Notes under the pieces: generated by a model
Databases searched by the model: none
What the model was told of the DNA's origin: nothing
The model's input: the letters and a program-made list of their open reading frames with translations, nothing else
Part shown: in pieces, positions 867 to 52,847 of the stretch
Numbering within the stretch: the first letter of the stretch is position 1
Layout: each line of letters begins with the position of its first letter
Made by a program: the position numbers and the translations under genes
DNA from: Capsulimonadaceae bacterium
Lineage (GTDB): Bacteria; Armatimonadota; Armatimonadia; Armatimonadales; Capsulimonadaceae
Assembly (NCBI GenBank): GCA_031292625.1
Contig: JARLGU010000052.1
Span: 1-64,000, forward strand
DNA length: 64,000 nucleotides
Direction: 5' to 3'

Positions 867-2885
867 CTATGATTGCCAAAACCGTGGAACGCGCAGCAGT
901 AGGCGTCCGCTGGACATCGGAAGCTCGAACGCGCCATCCGATATTCGCTTTAGCGCTTCGCCGGTCGCGGCATTTTGAATAATCTTGGCGGCGGCGGGAA
1001 GGCGAAGCGTGAGGCCGGCAAAGCTCATCCGCTCTTCGATCACATCGATTTCGAGCGCTTTGCGCGTGGGGACGTAGTGCAGCAGCGTCAGCAGCAAGTC
1101 ATCGCCTTGTCTGCGCGGCACACACTGAACGGTTGTCGGCAACCCTGCGCCAAAGGGCGGCAGGCCGATCGCGAGTTCCATCGCTCGCCTCCAGCCGTCA
1201 CGAATCGCGAGGTTACCGGTCTGGCGATACTCGCGAAAGATCGGGTCCGCGAAATACACGAAACGCTCGCCGCCGATGACCGCCGGGAATGCGTCCACAT
1301 TTGATTGCGGCGGCGTCTGGAAATGCGAGCTGAACTTTAGATCCGTGCGCTTGAAGTACGGAAGTACGCGATCGACAAGAACGCGGGCGCCATCGCCTCC
1401 CGTGACATTTAGCCCTTTGGAGTATATCACTCGGTCGCTAACGGACAGCTCCGGCGCGAAGTCGGCGCGGGCTCGCCAATAGTTGGGGTAGAGATCCACC
1501 TCTCCTTGATGCGTCAAGGGGAGGAAATCGAGCGCCCATGCTCCAGCGGCATCGTGCCCCGACTTGTAAGACACAATCAGGTTGCCGCCTTGCGCATAGT
1601 AGGATTTCAGGGTTTCGCGCAGCGCCGTCGTGATCACGGTGGTGTCCGGGAGGATGACCACATCGACCCCGGCGAGCTTGCTGGCATCGTCCAGCACGAT
1701 CGAATCGTAATGCGCTTCGTCGCACATCATGACCGCCGCCTCCATGCTCTTGGATGCCTCCAGGTAATCGTTGCCTGGGTGGCTGGCGAGGAGAATGCCG
1801 ACCTGCGGGAGCGGCGTCGAACCCGCGTAAAAGGGCTCCGCGGCCTCGCACTGCTCGTACACCGAGCCAATGAGTGCGTACGCGGCGGCATCCAACGTGC
1901 CGCGCGGAGGCAATTGGTCGCCAATGCCAAGGTTTCCTCCGAGCATCTGTGTGCGAAAACACTCATACTCGAGGGCGGCCTGCGGCTTGATGCCGCCAAA
2001 ATCACCCCACATGCGTTGAAAACGGCCGGTCTGCCCGATCCACGGTTTTTGCCAGCTGCTCACCTGGCGGGCGAGTTTGGGAAAATGGTGGTAGCCCCAG
2101 AAGCCGGACGGAAGCGATTCGACTTCAAAGTGCGTCATCTCTTCCGCGAGCTTGCGGATCCCGACCTGACTGTCGATCGATGTAAAATTGGTTTGATTGT
2201 AGAAAATGCTCGCTTGCGGTCGAGCGCCGTGCAACAATGCGGTAAACCGCCGCGCGAACGCCTCTTGAGCGGCGCTCTCGAAGCGGCGTTGCGTGGACGG
2301 ATCGTCGTCCATGAATCCGTGCGCCTCCCGGAACCGTATGCTTGACTCGCTCCAGCACGCGCTTGGGTCAAAGAAGACGATGTCGAAGAAAAGGCCGTCA
2401 ACGTCATAGCGCGCGAGGAGTTCGCGAACGTGCGCCTCAATATAATCCAGGTAATCGGGATGGAGAAAGTTGAGGAATTTCCATGCCCCAGGGTGCGGAT
2501 GCTGCGGATCGGCCACGGAACCGCAGAAGAGGCCGCCCTTGGTCATCTGCCGCCACTCCGGGCGCCGCTGCGCCGCATCTTCTTCCCACGCGACCGTTGT
2601 GTAAATCGGACAGCAGATCCCCTCACGGTGCAGCGCCTCGATTTGTTCGCCCAACAAATCGCGTCCGGCCAGTGCTGGATGCTGCGTGCCCACGGTTGTC
2701 GGATAGTAACTCATGCCGTGATGACACTTCGCGAAAACGGTGACGGCGTTGACGTGTGCGCGCTTAAATGTTCGAGCGAATTCTCGCGCATCGAACTCTG
2801 AGGCGACATCGGGAATATAAGGGGACGTGTGGAAGTCCAGATGCACCAGCCGTTTGTGGCTGACTAGCGATGGCTCGGTTGACAT
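867..2885 (-). CDS. GHL6-type glycoside hydrolase with GH42-like trimerisation domain
   Basis: This 672-residue protein resembles the family called hypothetical glycosyl hydrolase 6 (GHL6), followed by a beta-galactosidase trimerisation-like domain. Residues 14-62 hold the typical HLDFHTS and VFAKCHHGMSYYPT blocks. DGLFFDIVFFD near residues 163-173 carries acidic residues (D168 is a good nucleophile candidate) at the end of a TIM-barrel strand. Residues of about 365-560 (PQVGILLAS, DVVILPDTTVIT) look like the flavodoxin-like trimerisation domain of GH42 enzymes. No signal peptide is visible, so it is probably cytoplasmic. The mutarotase gene follows on the same strand and a GH29 fucosidase operon lies upstream, which points to deoxysugar glycosides. 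The exact substrate is unknown, and the SD before the ATG is weak. Confidence 0.75.
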   Translation of the reverse strand: MSTEPSLVSHKRLVHLDFHTSPYIPDVASEFDAREFARTFKRAHVNAVTVFAKCHHGMSYYPTTVGTQHPALAGRDLLGEQIEALHREGICCPIYTTVAWEEDAAQRRPEWRQMTKGGLFCGSVADPQHPHPGAWKFLNFLHPDYLDYIEAHVRELLARYDVDGLFFDIVFFDPSACWSESSIRFREAHGFMDDDPSTQRRFESAAQEAFARRFTALLHGARPQASIFYNQTNFTSIDSQVGIRKLAEEMTHFEVESLPSGFWGYHHFPKLARQVSSWQKPWIGQTGRFQRMWGDFGGIKPQAALEYECFRTQMLGGNLGIGDQLPPRGTLDAAAYALIGSVYEQCEAAEPFYAGSTPLPQVGILLASHPGNDYLEASKSMEAAVMMCDEAHYDSIVLDDASKLAGVDVVILPDTTVITTALRETLKSYYAQGGNLIVSYKSGHDAAGAWALDFLPLTHQGEVDLYPNYWRARADFAPELSVSDRVIYSKGLNVTGGDGARVLVDRVLPYFKRTDLKFSSHFQTPPQSNVDAFPAVIGGERFVYFADPIFREYRQTGNLAIRDGWRRAMELAIGLPPFGAGLPTTVQCVPRRQGDDLLLTLLHYVPTRKALEIDVIEERMSFAGLTLRLPAAAKIIQNAATGEALKRISDGAFELPMSSGRLLLRVPRFWQS

Positions 2886-2941
2886 GGGATAGGCTCTCTT
2901 AAAGTGTGAGTAATAAACGGGCGTACTGTGAGAAAGATTCA

Positions 2942-3119
2942 GGACGGCTCGTGCCGCCGGGGCAATTTCTTGCCCGCGCTCCGTTCACGGCGGTGATCGT
3001 CAAGGCCTCGTCAACACGCGTACGGCCTTTTGCCGCTATCGTCCGATCCCAGCGCGCATCGTGAAACCGCCGCGTCGGCCCTTTTTCAAATATTTCCTCG
3101 GCGGTAACGAAGCCGTCTT
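2942..3119 (+). repeat. Dispersed inverted-end element, copy A
   Basis: This non-coding segment closely matches 50948-51133 in the same orientation. Exact shared runs include 2943-2964 (22 bases, = 50949-50970), 2982-2997 (16 bases) and 3014-3036 (23 bases, = 51020-51042). Both ends, read inward, start GACGGC and continue similarly (GACGGCTCGTGCCGCCGG on the left, GACGGCTTCGTTACCGCCGA on the right), so it has imperfect terminal inverted repeats. Inside is a hairpin (GGGCAA/TTGCCC near 2960-2975). It has no open frame and resembles a miniature inverted-repeat element. A structured RNA is the alternative. Confidence 0.75.
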
Positions 3120-3130
3120 ACAAACCATTT

Positions 3131-3323
3131 CGATGTTAGTACGATCCTAGCTCATTTTGAGCGTGGTTCGCCAGTGGAGAACCACGCTTCTTTCTCCTCC
3201 CGTTTCGGCTCCTCGGCCTCGCTCGGAGGCCTGAGCCTGTCGAAGGAGAGGAAGGGGCCTGCCGTCCTCGGCGGGAAGGTGGGTTCCGCGCGAAGCGCGC
3301 CGAGGCGAAGCCGATGTTAGTAC
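3131..3323. repeat. 12-bp direct repeat flanking a 169-bp segment
   Basis: CGATGTTAGTAC occurs at 3131-3142 and again at 3312-3323. The 169 bases between them differ from element copy B, which is not followed by such a segment. The arrangement looks like an insertion with target duplication or slippage. The enclosed segment carries the 46-bp repeat (3195-3240) and a perfect 9-bp stem hairpin near 3169-3188 (GCGTGGTTC/GAACCACGC). Confidence 0.65.
3195..3240 (+). repeat. 46-bp repeat copy (inverse of 1-46)
   Basis: It is the partner of bases 1-46, in opposite orientation, with two mismatches. It ends in CTGAGCCTGT and continues with CGAAGG. Motifs like this are commonly scattered through bacterial genomes, so it need not be specific to this locus. 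Confidence 0.85.
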
Positions 3324-3341
3324 ACGCTCTCCTAAAGGGAA

Positions 3342-3388: not shown

Positions 3389-4453
3389 TTAATCCGATAC
3401 GATCACGACCTTGCCGCTCTGACCGGCATCCGCGATCTTGTAGGCGTCCGCTGCTTGAGCCAGCGTGAGGCGGTGCGTGACCGTGCGCTCAGGATGCAGA
3501 TTCCAGCGGCTCAGACGCTCGGCGAGCTCCGACATATGGTCGAGGCTGGTGACCCAGGATCCGTAGAGCGTGATCTGCGGGTGGATCAGCATCGGCGAGA
3601 CGTCGAACTGCACGTCATTGCCTTCGCCGACAAAGGCGCAACGCCCCCATTGACGGGTGCCCTGAAGGGCGAGACGCCGGGCGGGGGGAGCGCCGGAGCA
3701 GTCGATGCTGGCTTCGCATCCCTTGCCGCCGGTTGCGTCCTTGATCTTGTCCAACGCGTTCGCGTCGCTCACGAGCGGGATGTCGACGAGCCCGAGCTTG
3801 ACGGCAAGATCGATTCGGTTCTGGCTGGTGTCCGCGCCGATGACCGTGTGCGCTCCCAGCGCTTTGCCAAGCATTGCGGCCGCCAATCCGACCGGGCCGA
3901 GCCCCGTGACGAGCAGCGTATCGCGGCCGTTGACTCCGATGCGGGTGAGAGCCTCCCACGCAGTGCCGAAGCCGCATGCGATCAGCGCGCCGTCAACGTA
4001 CGTAAGGTTGTCCGGAAGCGCGACGCATGTGTTCTCTTCGGCAAGCAGATACTCGGCATGGCCGCCGTCGCGTTGCCAGCCGTACGCCGCGCGTGTTTTC
4101 GAGTGGCACGAGATCATGTAGCCGTGCTTGCAGTCGTCGCAAACGCCGCAGCCGCTGATGTGGTAGAGAATCACACGGTCGCCAGCCTTGTACTGGACGC
4201 AGCCGGGACCGGTTTCGACGATCTGGCCGCAAGGTTCGTGGCCGGCGATGACGCCGCGATAGGCTTCGTCGCCGACTCCGAGGTGCTCGCGGTAGATCGC
4301 GCGGATGTCCGATCCGCAGATCGACGACGCCTTCATCTTGACGAGAACCTGGCGATAACCGGGTGTCGGAACGGCGAATTCGCGAAACTCGACGGTGCTG
4401 TTGCCGGGTAGGACGACGCCTTTCATGGTCTTCTGTTCAGGGTGGTTGCTCAT
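3389..4453 (-). CDS. Zinc-dependent medium-chain alcohol/sugar dehydrogenase
   Basis: This 354-residue protein is of the MDR alcohol dehydrogenase superfamily, which oxidises an alcohol or sugar hydroxyl using NAD(P). C46 and the GHE motif at 71-73 fit the catalytic zinc site. C102, C105, C108 and C116 form the structural zinc site. A Rossmann glycine motif ([10 protein letters not shown]) lies near residue 185. Its ATG is only three bases beyond the GH29 stop region, with GGAG six bases upstream inside the fucosidase gene's end, so the two genes are translationally linked. The pairing suggests oxidation of the sugar released by the fucosidase (L-fucose to fuconolactone is one option), but the substrate cannot be read from sequence. 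It ends just before a terminator-like hairpin. Confidence 0.85.
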
Positions 4454-5905: not shown

Positions 5906-6189
5906 GCTGTAAATCCTTAGTTGAGTCGAAATCGTTTTCTATGCGGGTGTGTTATATATCAAATTGCCTCGTACTACGGCTCCTCCATGCAATAGAGCCG
6001 AGCAATACGAATAAAGAATTCGGAGCCCTCTCTGTCCGTCGTGCCTCACTTTTCGTGTGCCGGAGACGGCGATTTTGTCGCAAGCAGCTGGCCGTGATTA
6101 ACCTGGAGCGAAGCGACCAAGAAAAAATGCCCCGGCGGCATGAGCCGTCTTGAAATCTCTTAGCACCATGCAGAGTTATTACATACGCT
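5906..6189. other. Intergenic region upstream of the fucosidase
   Basis: It has no gene. An AT-rich stretch near 5950-5965 (TATATAAC read on the minus strand) could be part of the fucosidase promoter, but the -35 is unclear. A six-bp-stem hairpin (GGCTCC/GAGCC) lies at about 5978-5999. Element copy C occupies 6064-6151. Confidence 0.45.
6064..6151 (-). repeat. Short diverged inverted-end element, copy C
   Basis: On the minus strand, 6149 down to 6128 matches the first 22 bases of copies A and B with one change. The other end, at 6065-6070, is GACGGC on the plus strand, so the segment also has GACGGC...GCCGTC ends. The interior is shorter (88 bp in total) and mostly unlike A and B. It may be a deletion derivative or only an end fragment. 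Confidence 0.5.
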
Positions 6190-7230
6190 CTATGCGGGAG
6201 TTATTATCCCGTCCGTGTCCCAGAGTGCCTCCCAGGTCTGTCCGGACTTCCACAAAAAGACGTGGCCCTTGATCAGGCGATTGTTCTTGTCGATCCCCGC
6301 GATCTGCCGCATCTCATCTTCGGTAAGCGGATCGGCGACGACGGCTTTCAGGGTGGTCAAAAATTGGGAGCGCTTGACGGAGAACGGGATCGGAATCTGC
6401 CCATGCTGCACCGCCCACTTGACGCATACGACGGCAGGATGAACACCCAGGCGTGAGGCGATCCGTTGGATAACCGGGTCCTCAATGTCTACGGTGTCGT
6501 CAGGCGTACGGTCGCGCTCGGGGCGTGACGGCGAGCCAATTGGACTATAGCCGACGGGGATGATCCCGTGCGAGAGCACGTAGTCGAATAGCGCCGGCTG
6601 CTGGAAGTGCGGATGCATTTCCATTTCGTTGACCGCCGGCTTGATCCGTGCATCGCGTAGCACCAGTTCCAGTTTCGGGATCGTCATGTTCGACGTTCCG
6701 ATCGCCCGCACAAGGCCATCGTCGACAAGTTGCTCCATTTGCGCCCACGTTGCCATATAGGCGTCGTGGATGTAAGGTTTGGCGTTGTGGTCGCGAGAGT
6801 CGACCGTGACTCCGGCGGCATGGTGGTTCGGGAAAGGCCAGTGGACCAGGAAGAGGTCGAGGTAGTCCAGGCGCAGATCGGAGAGCGATTTCTTGCACGA
6901 TTCGATCACCTTGCCCGCGCCGTGCATATCGTTCCAAACCTTGGATGTAACCCAAATCTCGTCGCGCTTGACTCCATTGGTCGTGATCGCCTGGAGAGCC
7001 TCTCCGATGAGGGCCTCGTTGCCGTAGACCGATGCGCAATCGAAATGACGGTAGCCGACGCAAGCGGCTTCGATCACGGCGCTTGCGACCTGCTCCGGCG
7101 AGTATGTATCGGAGCCGAACGTCCCGAGGCCGATGGCGGGGATCCGCGCTCCGGTCGGGAGAGTTTTGTAGGGAACGAGCGCCGGATCGACGCCATCTTC
7201 GGCAATGCGAAACTGTTTAAAGCTTGTCAT
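6190..7230 (-). CDS. Aldo/keto reductase
   Basis: This 346-residue NADPH-type aldo/keto reductase has a TIM-barrel fold. Family blocks include GARIPAIGLGTFG (about 27-39), the GYRHFDCASVYGNE block with catalytic D64 and Y69, a Lys in VTSKVWND and a His in LVHWPFP. These complete the Asp/Tyr/Lys/His tetrad. The C-terminal SVKRSQF is a cofactor-binding motif. The frame is open to 7278, but homology begins well inside. The ATG at 7230 is preferred although neither start has a strong SD. It diverges from an AraC regulator and is followed on the same strand by the fucosidase pair, so it probably reduces or oxidises a sugar in that pathway. The substrate is inferred only from context. Confidence 0.85.
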   Translation of the reverse strand: MTSFKQFRIAEDGVDPALVPYKTLPTGARIPAIGLGTFGSDTYSPEQVASAVIEAACVGYRHFDCASVYGNEALIGEALQAITTNGVKRDEIWVTSKVWNDMHGAGKVIESCKKSLSDLRLDYLDLFLVHWPFPNHHAAGVTVDSRDHNAKPYIHDAYMATWAQMEQLVDDGLVRAIGTSNMTIPKLELVLRDARIKPAVNEMEMHPHFQQPALFDYVLSHGIIPVGYSPIGSPSRPERDRTPDDTVDIEDPVIQRIASRLGVHPAVVCVKWAVQHGQIPIPFSVKRSQFLTTLKAVVADPLTEDEMRQIAGIDKNNRLIKGHVFLWKSGQTWEALWDTDGIITPA

Positions 7231-50064: not shown

Positions 50065-50799
50065 ATGCCAGAAGTGAATTTTAAAGTCTTTCGCGGCAAC
50101 AGCGAGGGCGGAGAAGAGGTCGACTACAAAGTCGAGGTGACGGAAGGCATGGTCGTTCTCGACGCCATGTTCCAGATCCAGCAAACCAAGGCGCCGGATC
50201 TCGCGATCCGCTGGAACTGCAAGGCGGCTAAGTGCGGCTCGTGTTCGGCGGAAATCAACGGCAAGCCGTCTTTAATGTGCAAGACGCGGCTGGATACGCT
50301 AGACCCGAGCAAGCCGGTTACGGTTCGCCCGATGCGCGCGTTCCCGATCATTAAGGATCTGGTAACCGACGTGTCGTTTAACTATCGCGTCAACAAGACG
50401 ATCCCGCCGTTCAAGCCGAAACCCGGGACCGACTGGAAGATGCTGCAGGAGGACGTGGACAGGGCGCAGGAGTTCCGCAAGTGTATCGAGTGCTTCCTTT
50501 GTCAGGATACGTGCCACGTTCTGCGCGATCACGCCAAGCACGAGCAGTTCGGCGGTCCGCGATGGCTGATCCGGGCGGCGAGCCTGGAGATGCATCCGTT
50601 GGACGTGGAAGACCGCATCCCGATGATCCGGGAGAAACTGGGCATCGGCTTCTGCAACATTACGAAATGCTGCACCGAGGTCTGCCCGGAAGAGATCCAC
50701 ATTACCGACAACGCGATCATCCCATTGAAAGAGCGCGTCGTCGACCGGTACTACGACCCGATCGGCAAGCTGATCCGGATCTTCACGGGAAACAAGTAG
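50065..50799 (+). CDS. sdhB: Succinate dehydrogenase iron-sulfur subunit
   Basis: This 244-residue subunit has a ferredoxin domain with a 2Fe-2S site (C52, C57, C60, C72 in NCKAAKCGSCSAEING and LMCKTRL). It is followed by 4Fe-4S/3Fe-4S motifs in KCIECFLCQDTCHV and NITKCCTEVCPEEIHI. It transfers electrons from the flavoprotein to the membrane anchor. It starts six bases after sdhA, and an intrinsic terminator lies 27 bases beyond its stop. Confidence 0.97.
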   Translation: MPEVNFKVFRGNSEGGEEVDYKVEVTEGMVVLDAMFQIQQTKAPDLAIRWNCKAAKCGSCSAEINGKPSLMCKTRLDTLDPSKPVTVRPMRAFPIIKDLVTDVSFNYRVNKTIPPFKPKPGTDWKMLQEDVDRAQEFRKCIECFLCQDTCHVLRDHAKHEQFGGPRWLIRAASLEMHPLDVEDRIPMIREKLGIGFCNITKCCTEVCPEEIHITDNAIIPLKERVVDRYYDPIGKLIRIFTGNK

Positions 50800-50857: not shown

Positions 50858-51368
50858 GGACGCAGGGTAATTCATCTGCCTGCTTGCGAGAGTCGTTTCC
50901 TCCCTTGAAGCGTTTGTCATTGATCGAGGCGCCGAGAACATGTTTCCAGACGGCTCGTGCCGCCGGGGCAGTTTATTGCCCGCGCCTCGTTCACGGCGGT
51001 GATTTACGATGCCTCGTCGACACGCGTACGGCCTTTTGCCGCCATCGTCCGATCTCAGCGCACATCGTGAAGCTGTGAAACCGCTGTAATGGCCCTTTTC
51101 AAAAACGGCCACGGCGGCCGCAGAAACCGTCTTACAAGGCGTCTCGATTATTACACCCCCTCTTATTAGCGTTGTGGCTGCTATGCGTATATCATTTCGT
51201 GGAGATAATCGTTATCAACAACGATTGCACCCGCCATTGGAAGTATAATCATTGCCACGAACAGGATTTTCGTGCCGGCAAGATGGAGGGTCATTCCGCA
51301 AATCGCGGCTATTCGACTCCGCACGTCCTCATGCTCTCTGCTCGACCGTCTGCGCTTTGGGGTTAACC
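50858..51368. other. Gap holding element B, upstream of the GT39-like gene
   Basis: It has no gene. Apart from element B (50948-51133), it contains an AT-rich stretch near 51160-51260 that may hold the promoter of the glycosyltransferase. Confidence 0.5.
50948..51133 (+). repeat. Dispersed inverted-end element, copy B
   Basis: It is the partner of 2942-3119, in the same orientation, with the same left end (AGACGGC) and an inverted right end (ACCGTCTT). The internal hairpin is preserved with a compensating change (GGGCAG/TTGCCC versus GGGCAA/TTGCCC). Shared runs of 22, 16 and 23 bases are separated by substitutions and small length changes. It is not followed by the 12-bp direct-repeat segment found after copy A. 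Confidence 0.75.
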
Positions 51369-52847
51369 ATGACGCTCTCACAGGCCGCTCCAATTGAGGA
51401 TTTAGCATCTCGGGAGAAGTGTGGGCTTTCCGAGGACCTTGCGCGCGGTTTTCTGCTCGTACTCCTTGCCTTTGCCGCATCGCTTCCGCTTCTTATGAAG
51501 CTTCCCGCGCCATTCATCGATGAACCTGGTTTCATCGACCCCGTCGTTACGCTTTTACGGCATGGCTACCTGGGAACGGATTTGTACAACGGTTATGCGC
51601 TCGGGATGGAAAAGCACGTCTATTGGCAGCCGCCGCTGTATTTCCTGGCGCTCGCGGCCTGGTTTCGAGTGTTCGGTATCGGTCTCGCGCAAGCTCGCGC
51701 GTTTTCGCTGATCTGCTCGGTGGGAACCGTATTGCTTGTTTACGCGCTTTCGAGGCGCTGGGCGACTGCCAATCAAGCATTTTGTGCGTCCGCTCTCTGC
51801 GTCGTTTCTGTTTGGTTTCAATTCGACGCATCCGTTGCCAGGATGGATTCGCTGTGCATCTTTTTGACGTTTGCCAGCGTATTGGCGTATTTGCGCGCCA
51901 TTGATCGATCGGGGAAAAGATGGTACGGCGTGAGCGGATTGCTGGCCGGATTGGCCGTCCTTACGCATCCGCTTGGCGTCGTTGCGCTGGTGGTTGTAGT
52001 GACGCACTTCTTGTTCGTACGTAGGGATGTCCTCAGGCGCTCGGGAGAATTCGGCGCGTTCGTTGCATGTTTCGCGATATGCGTCGTTGCCTGGACGGTG
52101 TATATTCTGCAGGGTCCGGAGGCGTTCTGGATACAGATGCACGCGCAGTTCCTGCGTAAGGAACATCCGGAAATGCCGTGGTGGTGGCAGCTCTGGCTCC
52201 TGAGAAAGCATCCCGCCACAATATTGCTTGCGCTCGGCGCCTGTCTATGGCTGATCTTCGGCGGGTGGCGCAGAACGAATTGCGCGATTCTAGCGATCGC
52301 GGTCATGGCGGCATTTGTTTGCGCTTTGGGCGGGCGTGAGCAGACGTATCCATTCTATTACTTCTCCTGGGCATGTGTCGCAATCGCGGTACTGCTCAAG
52401 CACTATCAGGGAAGACGGATCGTTCTGATAGGGTGCTTGGCGTTGGCGATTTCAAACGAACTGGCGGGGCTTGGATACAACGTTTGGCGGTGTCGGCATC
52501 GAGACTATTCGGCGCTGTCGCGAACTCTTCGGGCCGCGATTCCGGCAGGCAAGAGCGTTTACATTGGTCTAGCCGATGTTTCGCCCTACTTTGCGTTGCG
52601 CGATAGAAACCCGATGCGCGCCGAAATCCCGGTCCCGCTCTCGAAGCCCAATGCACATGGCGTGGTGGCTTCTCAATGCGACTACATCGTGGACTCGCGG
52701 CCCGAGTTCGAGCGGCCTGACATTGTTGCGCTCATATCGAGCGCCAAGCCAATCGCGCGAGTCGATCAGGGCGATGGCTATCGGATCGTTGTGTTCGATC
52801 GACGCGCTTCTGCCTCGCGGATGAGTGATGCGGGGCAGGAACGATAG
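51369..52847 (+). CDS. GT39-like (PMT/ArnT-type) membrane glycosyltransferase
   Basis: This 492-residue multi-pass protein has an early luminal acidic motif (FIDEPGFID, like the DE motif of GT-C enzymes) after the first helix, and then about ten further helices. EKHVYWQPPLYFLALAAWFRVFG matches the family's second block. It likely transfers a sugar from a polyprenyl-phosphate donor to a lipid or protein outside the membrane. The longer frame begins at 51252, but the ATG at 51369 gives a short cytoplasmic start directly before the first helix. It is a single gene between element B and the convergent mscS gene. Donor and acceptor are unknown. Confidence 0.8.
   Translation: MTLSQAAPIEDLASREKCGLSEDLARGFLLVLLAFAASLPLLMKLPAPFIDEPGFIDPVVTLLRHGYLGTDLYNGYALGMEKHVYWQPPLYFLALAAWFRVFGIGLAQARAFSLICSVGTVLLVYALSRRWATANQAFCASALCVVSVWFQFDASVARMDSLCIFLTFASVLAYLRAIDRSGKRWYGVSGLLAGLAVLTHPLGVVALVVVVTHFLFVRRDVLRRSGEFGAFVACFAICVVAWTVYILQGPEAFWIQMHAQFLRKEHPEMPWWWQLWLLRKHPATILLALGACLWLIFGGWRRTNCAILAIAVMAAFVCALGGREQTYPFYYFSWACVAIAVLLKHYQGRRIVLIGCLALAISNELAGLGYNVWRCRHRDYSALSRTLRAAIPAGKSVYIGLADVSPYFALRDRNPMRAEIPVPLSKPNAHGVVASQCDYIVDSRPEFERPDIVALISSAKPIARVDQGDGYRIVVFDRRASASRMSDAGQER

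Follow-up and report, generated by a model that had tools for sequence, protein, structure and literature searches.

The two repeats and the third element in the window

The window, a stretch of 64,000 nucleotides, comprises positions 1-64000 of contig 19 of a 5.77 Mb assembly in 65 contigs. It carries two intergenic copies, A and B, of one MITE family (family I) and a third MITE (family II) with the same tip type, a shared end module (GACGGCTCATGCCGCCGGGGCA) and a different interior (Table 1). The initial annotation had placed A and B at 2942-3119 and 50948-51133, with common runs of 22, 16 and 23 bases; both copies are present there, the runs (GACGGCTCGTGCCGCCGGGGCA, CGTTCACGGCGGTGAT and ACACGCGTACGGCCTTTTGCCGC, respectively) are exact and their order is identical. 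When the window's own assembly was searched with copy A as the query, B was found with an E value of 1.8e-43 and 81% identity, and the similarity of the two is far above chance.

Alignment with flanks showed that the homology of A and B continues beyond these limits, by about 40 bp at the left end and about 30 bp at the right end. The extents first given, which rest on real repeats, thus cover the inner part only, with ends off by about 30-40 bp per side. GACGGC, formerly taken as the end of the element, forms with GCCGTC a pair of sub-terminal inverted motifs; the true tips lie farther out, and in both A and B the outer tips are eroded. The DNA adjoining copy A on the right (window 3160-3330) is rich in G+C and contains inverted as well as repeated motifs (GTGGTTCGCCAGTGGAGAACCAC; GCGCGAAGCGCGCCGAGGCGAAGCCGATG). 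Copies related to family II are found on contigs 46, 60, 61 and 62, and a family I element on contig 24 sits nested in a copy related to family II.

Table 1. Position of MITE copies and their parts in the window
Feature	Position	Strand	Remarks
Copy A, family I MITE, single-unit form	2902..3147	+	element model match 2-257 of 267; alignments; intergenic, between ORFs 867-2885(-) and 3389-4453(-)
Copy A, 5' target duplication TTA	2899-2901		3' tip of copy A eroded
Copy A, inner (sub-terminal) inverted motif GACGGCTC	2943..2950	+	left end in the initial annotation; within the family's most conserved stretch
Copy A, 5' inward-facing terminator-like hairpin	2952..2971	+	family form TGCC-GCCGG-GGCA, in A TGCCGCCGGGGCA, then ATTTCTT
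Copy A, central unit core, one unit	2972..3045	+
Family II MITE	5943-6190	-	same tip type as family I
Family II MITE, flanks TAT on both sides	5940-5942, 6191-6193
Copy B, family I MITE, single-unit form	50908..51162	+	element model match 4-264 of 267; tips AAGCGTTTGTCA / TTACACCCCCTC; intergenic, between ORFs 50065-50799(+) and 51252-52847(+)
Copy B, flanks TTG and TTA	50905-50907, 51163-51165		imperfect TNA-type duplication
Copy B, central unit core, one unit	50978..51051	+
Copy B, 3' inward-facing terminator-like hairpin	51109..51123	-	then CCGTTTTTGA; listed by terminator scan

Copy number, placement and distribution

The genome search which had been proposed to check the family yielded many more copies, about 220 by extrapolation, and these are not confined to matches in a coding gene. 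Copy A gave at least 44 matches in its own assembly, from the 40 scored of 235 candidates. Thirty copies aligned with flanks defined the extent of the element. A profile of 267 positions detected 147 elements, either complete or partial, within a 2.22 Mb sample of the genome which was partly picked around known matches. On three whole or nearly whole contigs the density is 37.9 per Mb, which extrapolates to about 219 copies per genome; the full element measures about 256 bp, and family I accounts for roughly 1% of the DNA.

Elements are intergenic in 122 of 124 cases, while a position drawn at random has an 82% chance of lying in a predicted gene; genes were called with a simple purpose-written dicodon scorer. 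Between genes in tandem no orientation bias is seen (35 elements in the same direction and 32 opposite). Convergent contexts hold 34 elements and divergent ones 14; convergent genes are over-represented, with 34 of 115 elements compared to 148 of 977 spaces (p about 6e-5).

The 290 further genomes searched in the phylum gave no match to the family; no genome of the same genus is among these relatives, and a separate search of 61 genomes was likewise empty. One exact 25-mer of the family had no match in a genome-contig collection, one exact family pattern had none in viral contigs, and the family was not found in plasmids and phages. It is apparently genome-specific. This undescribed MITE family has clean IS5-type target duplications and makes up about 1% of the DNA of its host, a bacterium whose group has been sampled little.

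Tips, target duplications and empty sites

The terminal inverted repeats of the family are GAGNGTGTGTAA...TTACACACNCTC, as determined from the 30 copies aligned with flanks. A check for target duplications, also proposed in the initial annotation, revealed one of 3 bp with the sequence TNA. Among the 73 elements with both tips located, the flanking 3-mers are identical in 26, where 7.7 are expected and the maximum in 2,000 shuffles was 17; flanking 2-mers and 4-mers match in none of the 73. TNA stands on both sides of 28 elements, in 23 of which N is equal, and the preferred target site is C|TNA|G.

Empty sites are available for two elements. The joined flanks of the contig 24 element (36.7 kb) match paralogous repeats which lack it: at the counterpart on contig 62 the sequence is CTC-TTA-CT, in which TTA stands once, and a further counterpart, in the window at 5945-6030, has GTA at that place. 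For the contig 21 element (43.7 kb), counterparts without an insertion occur on contigs 24 and 61, and each bears TTA only once. A repeat, CTTAATCCTCATCTTCTCTTACAAAGCG, partly related to the 3' half of the MITE, served more than once as insertion target (L056:12764-12920, and the flanks in L026 and L028).

That the element has moved follows from the 3-bp TNA duplications together with the empty paralogous sites bearing a single TTA. The family consists of many short, gene-less, interspersed copies with terminal inverted repeats and a target duplication, which are the marks of a MITE, and we consider A and B to be copies of a MITE family moved by transposition with a probability of about 0.9. 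The non-autonomous mobile element suggested at the outset is thereby borne out by the many further copies, the target duplications and the empty sites. The highest identity between any aligned pair of the 55 single-unit copies is 92.5%; the family looks free of recent jumping, its sampled copies quiet and decaying, and very young identical copies could be missing from the draft assembly.

High copy number, palindromes, intergenic location and occasional clustering are also features of REPIN-type elements mobilised by a RAYT (Y1) transposase. Such an origin is contradicted by the 3-bp TNA duplication, the long terminal inverted repeats and the size of about 256 bp, and we regard it as highly improbable; RAYT/REPIN systems, whose ends are short REP hairpins, are not known to have either a 3-bp target duplication or long terminal inverted repeats.

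The probable transposase partner

TNA duplication together with GAG tips, as in the IS5-family elements of relatives, points to an IS5-family partner. A search of this genome and 20 relatives, 21 in all, found DUF4096 transposase genes of this family in eight, and none in the assembly studied here. Several of the genes in the relatives lie in complete insertion sequences, which are 855-996 bp long and mostly have GAG tips and TAA/TTA duplications; those in L261, L262, L266, L270 and L274 have in common GAG tips, TAA/TTA duplications and DUF4096 transposases. Examples of their tips are GAGACGGTTTGAAAATTC and GAGCGTGTTATGAAC, and the tip of one relative has its first 8 bases in common with the MITE. 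Two of the DUF4096 proteins match NF033580 (the NCBIfam IS5 family transposase) and PF13340, so that related bacteria possess what by sequence appear to be transposases of the right kind. The insertion sequences of DUF4096 / NF033580 type presumably correspond to the IS1031-like group, whose ends are GAG and whose targets are TNA. They resemble the MITE in having GAG tips, in duplicating 3 bp (TNA) and in a target similar to C|TNA|G; unlike them, the MITE has no transposase and measures about 256 bp, and no insertion sequence with exactly the MITE tips was found.

In agreement with the initial annotation, which reported no transposase nearby, PF00872, PF13340, PF13586, PF13359 and PF01609 gave no match on the window's contig. 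In the 2.22 Mb sample we found no autonomous element with the MITE tips and no plausible pair of tips bounding a long transposon, and tip-like sites outside elements are not in excess (64, against 94 in shuffled sequence). These searches are limited by the possible loss of repeated insertion sequence copies from a draft assembly. An autonomous partner with matching ends is the rule for MITEs and no strict requirement. Three candidates were discarded: an IS256 (Mutator) partner, prompted by the GTGTAA tips, as PF00872 has no match in the genome; a DUF4096 match on contig 58, which scores under the cut-off of the family and overlaps an unrelated open reading frame in a different frame; and the DDE_Tnp_1 genes, with six matches in the genome, none flanked by MITE tips.

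Taken together, the tips and target most likely indicate cross-mobilisation by an IS5-family transposase (DUF4096 / NCBIfam IS5_3 type), which, provided in trans, would have recognised the tips and mobilised the element. Mobilisation in trans is what we infer, since the assembly yielded no DUF4096 partner gene and its 2.22 Mb sample no autonomous element bearing the MITE tips; the mobilising transposase may now be absent or unassembled, and the copies are decaying.

Tandem arrays and the palindromic linker

Between the two end modules the central unit is present one to six times in tandem with a period of 93 bp. By length class, the 79 complete copies comprise 55 with one unit, 12 with two, seven with three, three with four, and one each with five and six; about 30% thus have more than one central module in tandem. 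The units are joined by CCGGTCACGGACCGG, a 15-bp palindrome which is perfect in 61 of 64 aligned junctions (0.3% divergence per base), compared to 9-40 of 64 for the 15-base blocks beside it (3.6-12.7%). Genome-wide there are 89 exact sites against 9 with one mismatch, and in the sampled 2.2 Mb no exact site lies outside the elements.

Fresh local duplication was rejected as the source of the arrays, units of the same array being only slightly closer (9.8% divergence) than units of different arrays (11.7-12.4%); for this reason the constancy of the linker is not explained by recent duplication. Candidate explanations are that the palindrome is a focus of conversion or recombination, or that it is a putative protein-binding site. 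Recombination or conversion focused on the palindrome may also have multiplied the units in tandem. It would go further to suppose that CCGGTCACGGACCGG is the site of a dedicated recombinase, nuclease or binding protein, by which the central module is actively multiplied and homogenised into arrays, and we hold this to be unlikely. If the linker is recognised, it would represent a modular amplification system on a non-autonomous element, in place of passive replication slippage. A fixed 15-bp palindrome amid DNA drifting by 4-13% poses a testable question, namely what holds the junction constant.

In eight places (contigs 2, 20, 23, 32, 33 and 56, and twice on contig 53) a contig breaks off no more than about 75 bases from a junction. 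As contigs end inside or beside arrays of the 93-bp unit, these break the assembly, and arrays longer than those assembled probably exist. On contig 58 (L163:2610-3015) there is a separate tandem array, unrelated to the MITE, of a 134-bp unit in 3 copies which are 96% alike.

The period of 93 bp is divisible by three and corresponds to 31 codons, with one frame open over the four units of L051:4275-4816, as would be expected of a short coding gene or a repeat-protein array. The divergence in the three phases (7.6, 12.1 and 12.4%) has no third-position excess, a stop codon follows in frame directly after the last unit and the other strand too has a near-open frame; a coding origin is therefore scarcely conceivable.

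End modules

At the left, going inward, the tip is followed by the conserved inner motif GATTCAGGACGGCTC and the hairpin GTGCCGCCGGGGCA(N)TTTTTT. Next come the central unit and a tail, and motif and hairpin recur in inverted form at the right end. A hairpin followed by a T-run is read inward at 78.7% of 122 5' ends and 76.9% of 130 3' ends, compared to 12-15% in dinucleotide shuffles (14.6% for 5' ends); read outward, it is found at 0.8% of left and 33% of right ends. With short stems, of 4-5 pairs, the end hairpins are terminator-like and at most putative intrinsic terminators; a stricter terminator scan, which demands a 5-bp stem, lists only the right end of B among the four ends in the window. 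Their closing pairs co-change (left T-A in 71 and G-C in 8, right G-C in 90 and T-A in 11), with so few states that few events may be responsible. Host use as exapted terminators was rejected, as hairpin integrity is independent of gene context, being equal (75-82%) in all of them.

The inward hairpins with their T-runs could stop transcription entering from either side, and such a stop may partly explain the tolerance of the copies, with their lack of orientation bias and the excess between convergent genes. The paired terminator-like hairpins hint at how a genome could tolerate hundreds of intergenic copies.

The conserved hairpins had also been thought to allow a structured RNA, riboswitch or attenuator, either co-transcribed with the downstream gene or a discrete small RNA. 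Single-strand folds do beat shuffles (z of -3.6 for A and -2.6 for B), and in some copies stems stay paired through two-sided changes. The compensating change noted earlier in a hairpin is likewise real, yet it belongs to what is essentially a two-state block, CGGCC/GGCCG or TTGCC/GGCAA, with 35 and 11 copies, respectively, at the outer pair. Two-sided changes affect 3 of the 16 pairs of the aligned fold, the end hairpins keep their pairs by two-state changes, and the covariation term contributes only -0.27 of -14.29 kcal/mol. No Rfam family matches in the window at gathering thresholds, and an array gave one sub-threshold match at chance level. The lack of orientation bias to neighbouring genes and the 14 divergent against 34 convergent elements are not the layout of 5' leaders, and neither a variable number of units nor target duplications are expected of an RNA gene. 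We therefore judge an RNA very unlikely.

Decay is uneven along the single-unit copies: divergence is 2.6% in the inner motif TTCAGGACGGCT and 17% in the 5' tip, with a mean of 11.4%, and in the older half of the copies it is about 5% in the inner motif compared to 15%. As transposition alone should protect the tips most, their faster decay is the reverse of what constraint by a transposase only would produce. Either the inner motif is a putative binding site of transposase or host under stronger constraint, or the interior undergoes conversion.

This conservation of the inner motif, the near-invariant linker and the convergent-gene excess would also suit an interspersed repeat maintained by the host in the manner of BIME or ERIC, in which copies, once inserted, would be retained for a use of their inner motif and linker, either as binding sites of a host protein or in stopping transcription. 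The uniform hairpin integrity across gene contexts and the decayed state of the majority of copies speak against it, and the convergent excess can result from promoter avoidance alone; maintenance by the host is a doubtful alternative to a MITE family moved by transposition.

Comparison with known systems

The family is new and of a known kind, as MITEs with an internal minisatellite and with hundreds of copies have precedents; the invariant palindromic linker is its one feature without a match to anything known. In architecture it is like BrickBuilt of Porphyromonas gingivalis, an always intergenic MITE with an internal tandem repeat between a leader and a tail with inverted ends (PMC4596501). 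BrickBuilt numbers 19 copies, and no spacers separate its 23-bp units (PMC4596501); this MITE numbers about 220, and its 93-bp units are joined by a constant 15-bp palindrome. Correia, Chunjie, QMITE and ERIC are similar in size class, intergenic location and tens to hundreds of often decayed copies, and are set apart by their descriptions, which differ in tips and target duplications (PMC10969869); the same review makes no mention of tandem repeats in MITEs. The C|TNA|G duplication by IS5-related transposases is shared with NuwaII, of the PHIS superfamily, a eukaryotic element which is likened to this MITE by its target only (PMC4482050).
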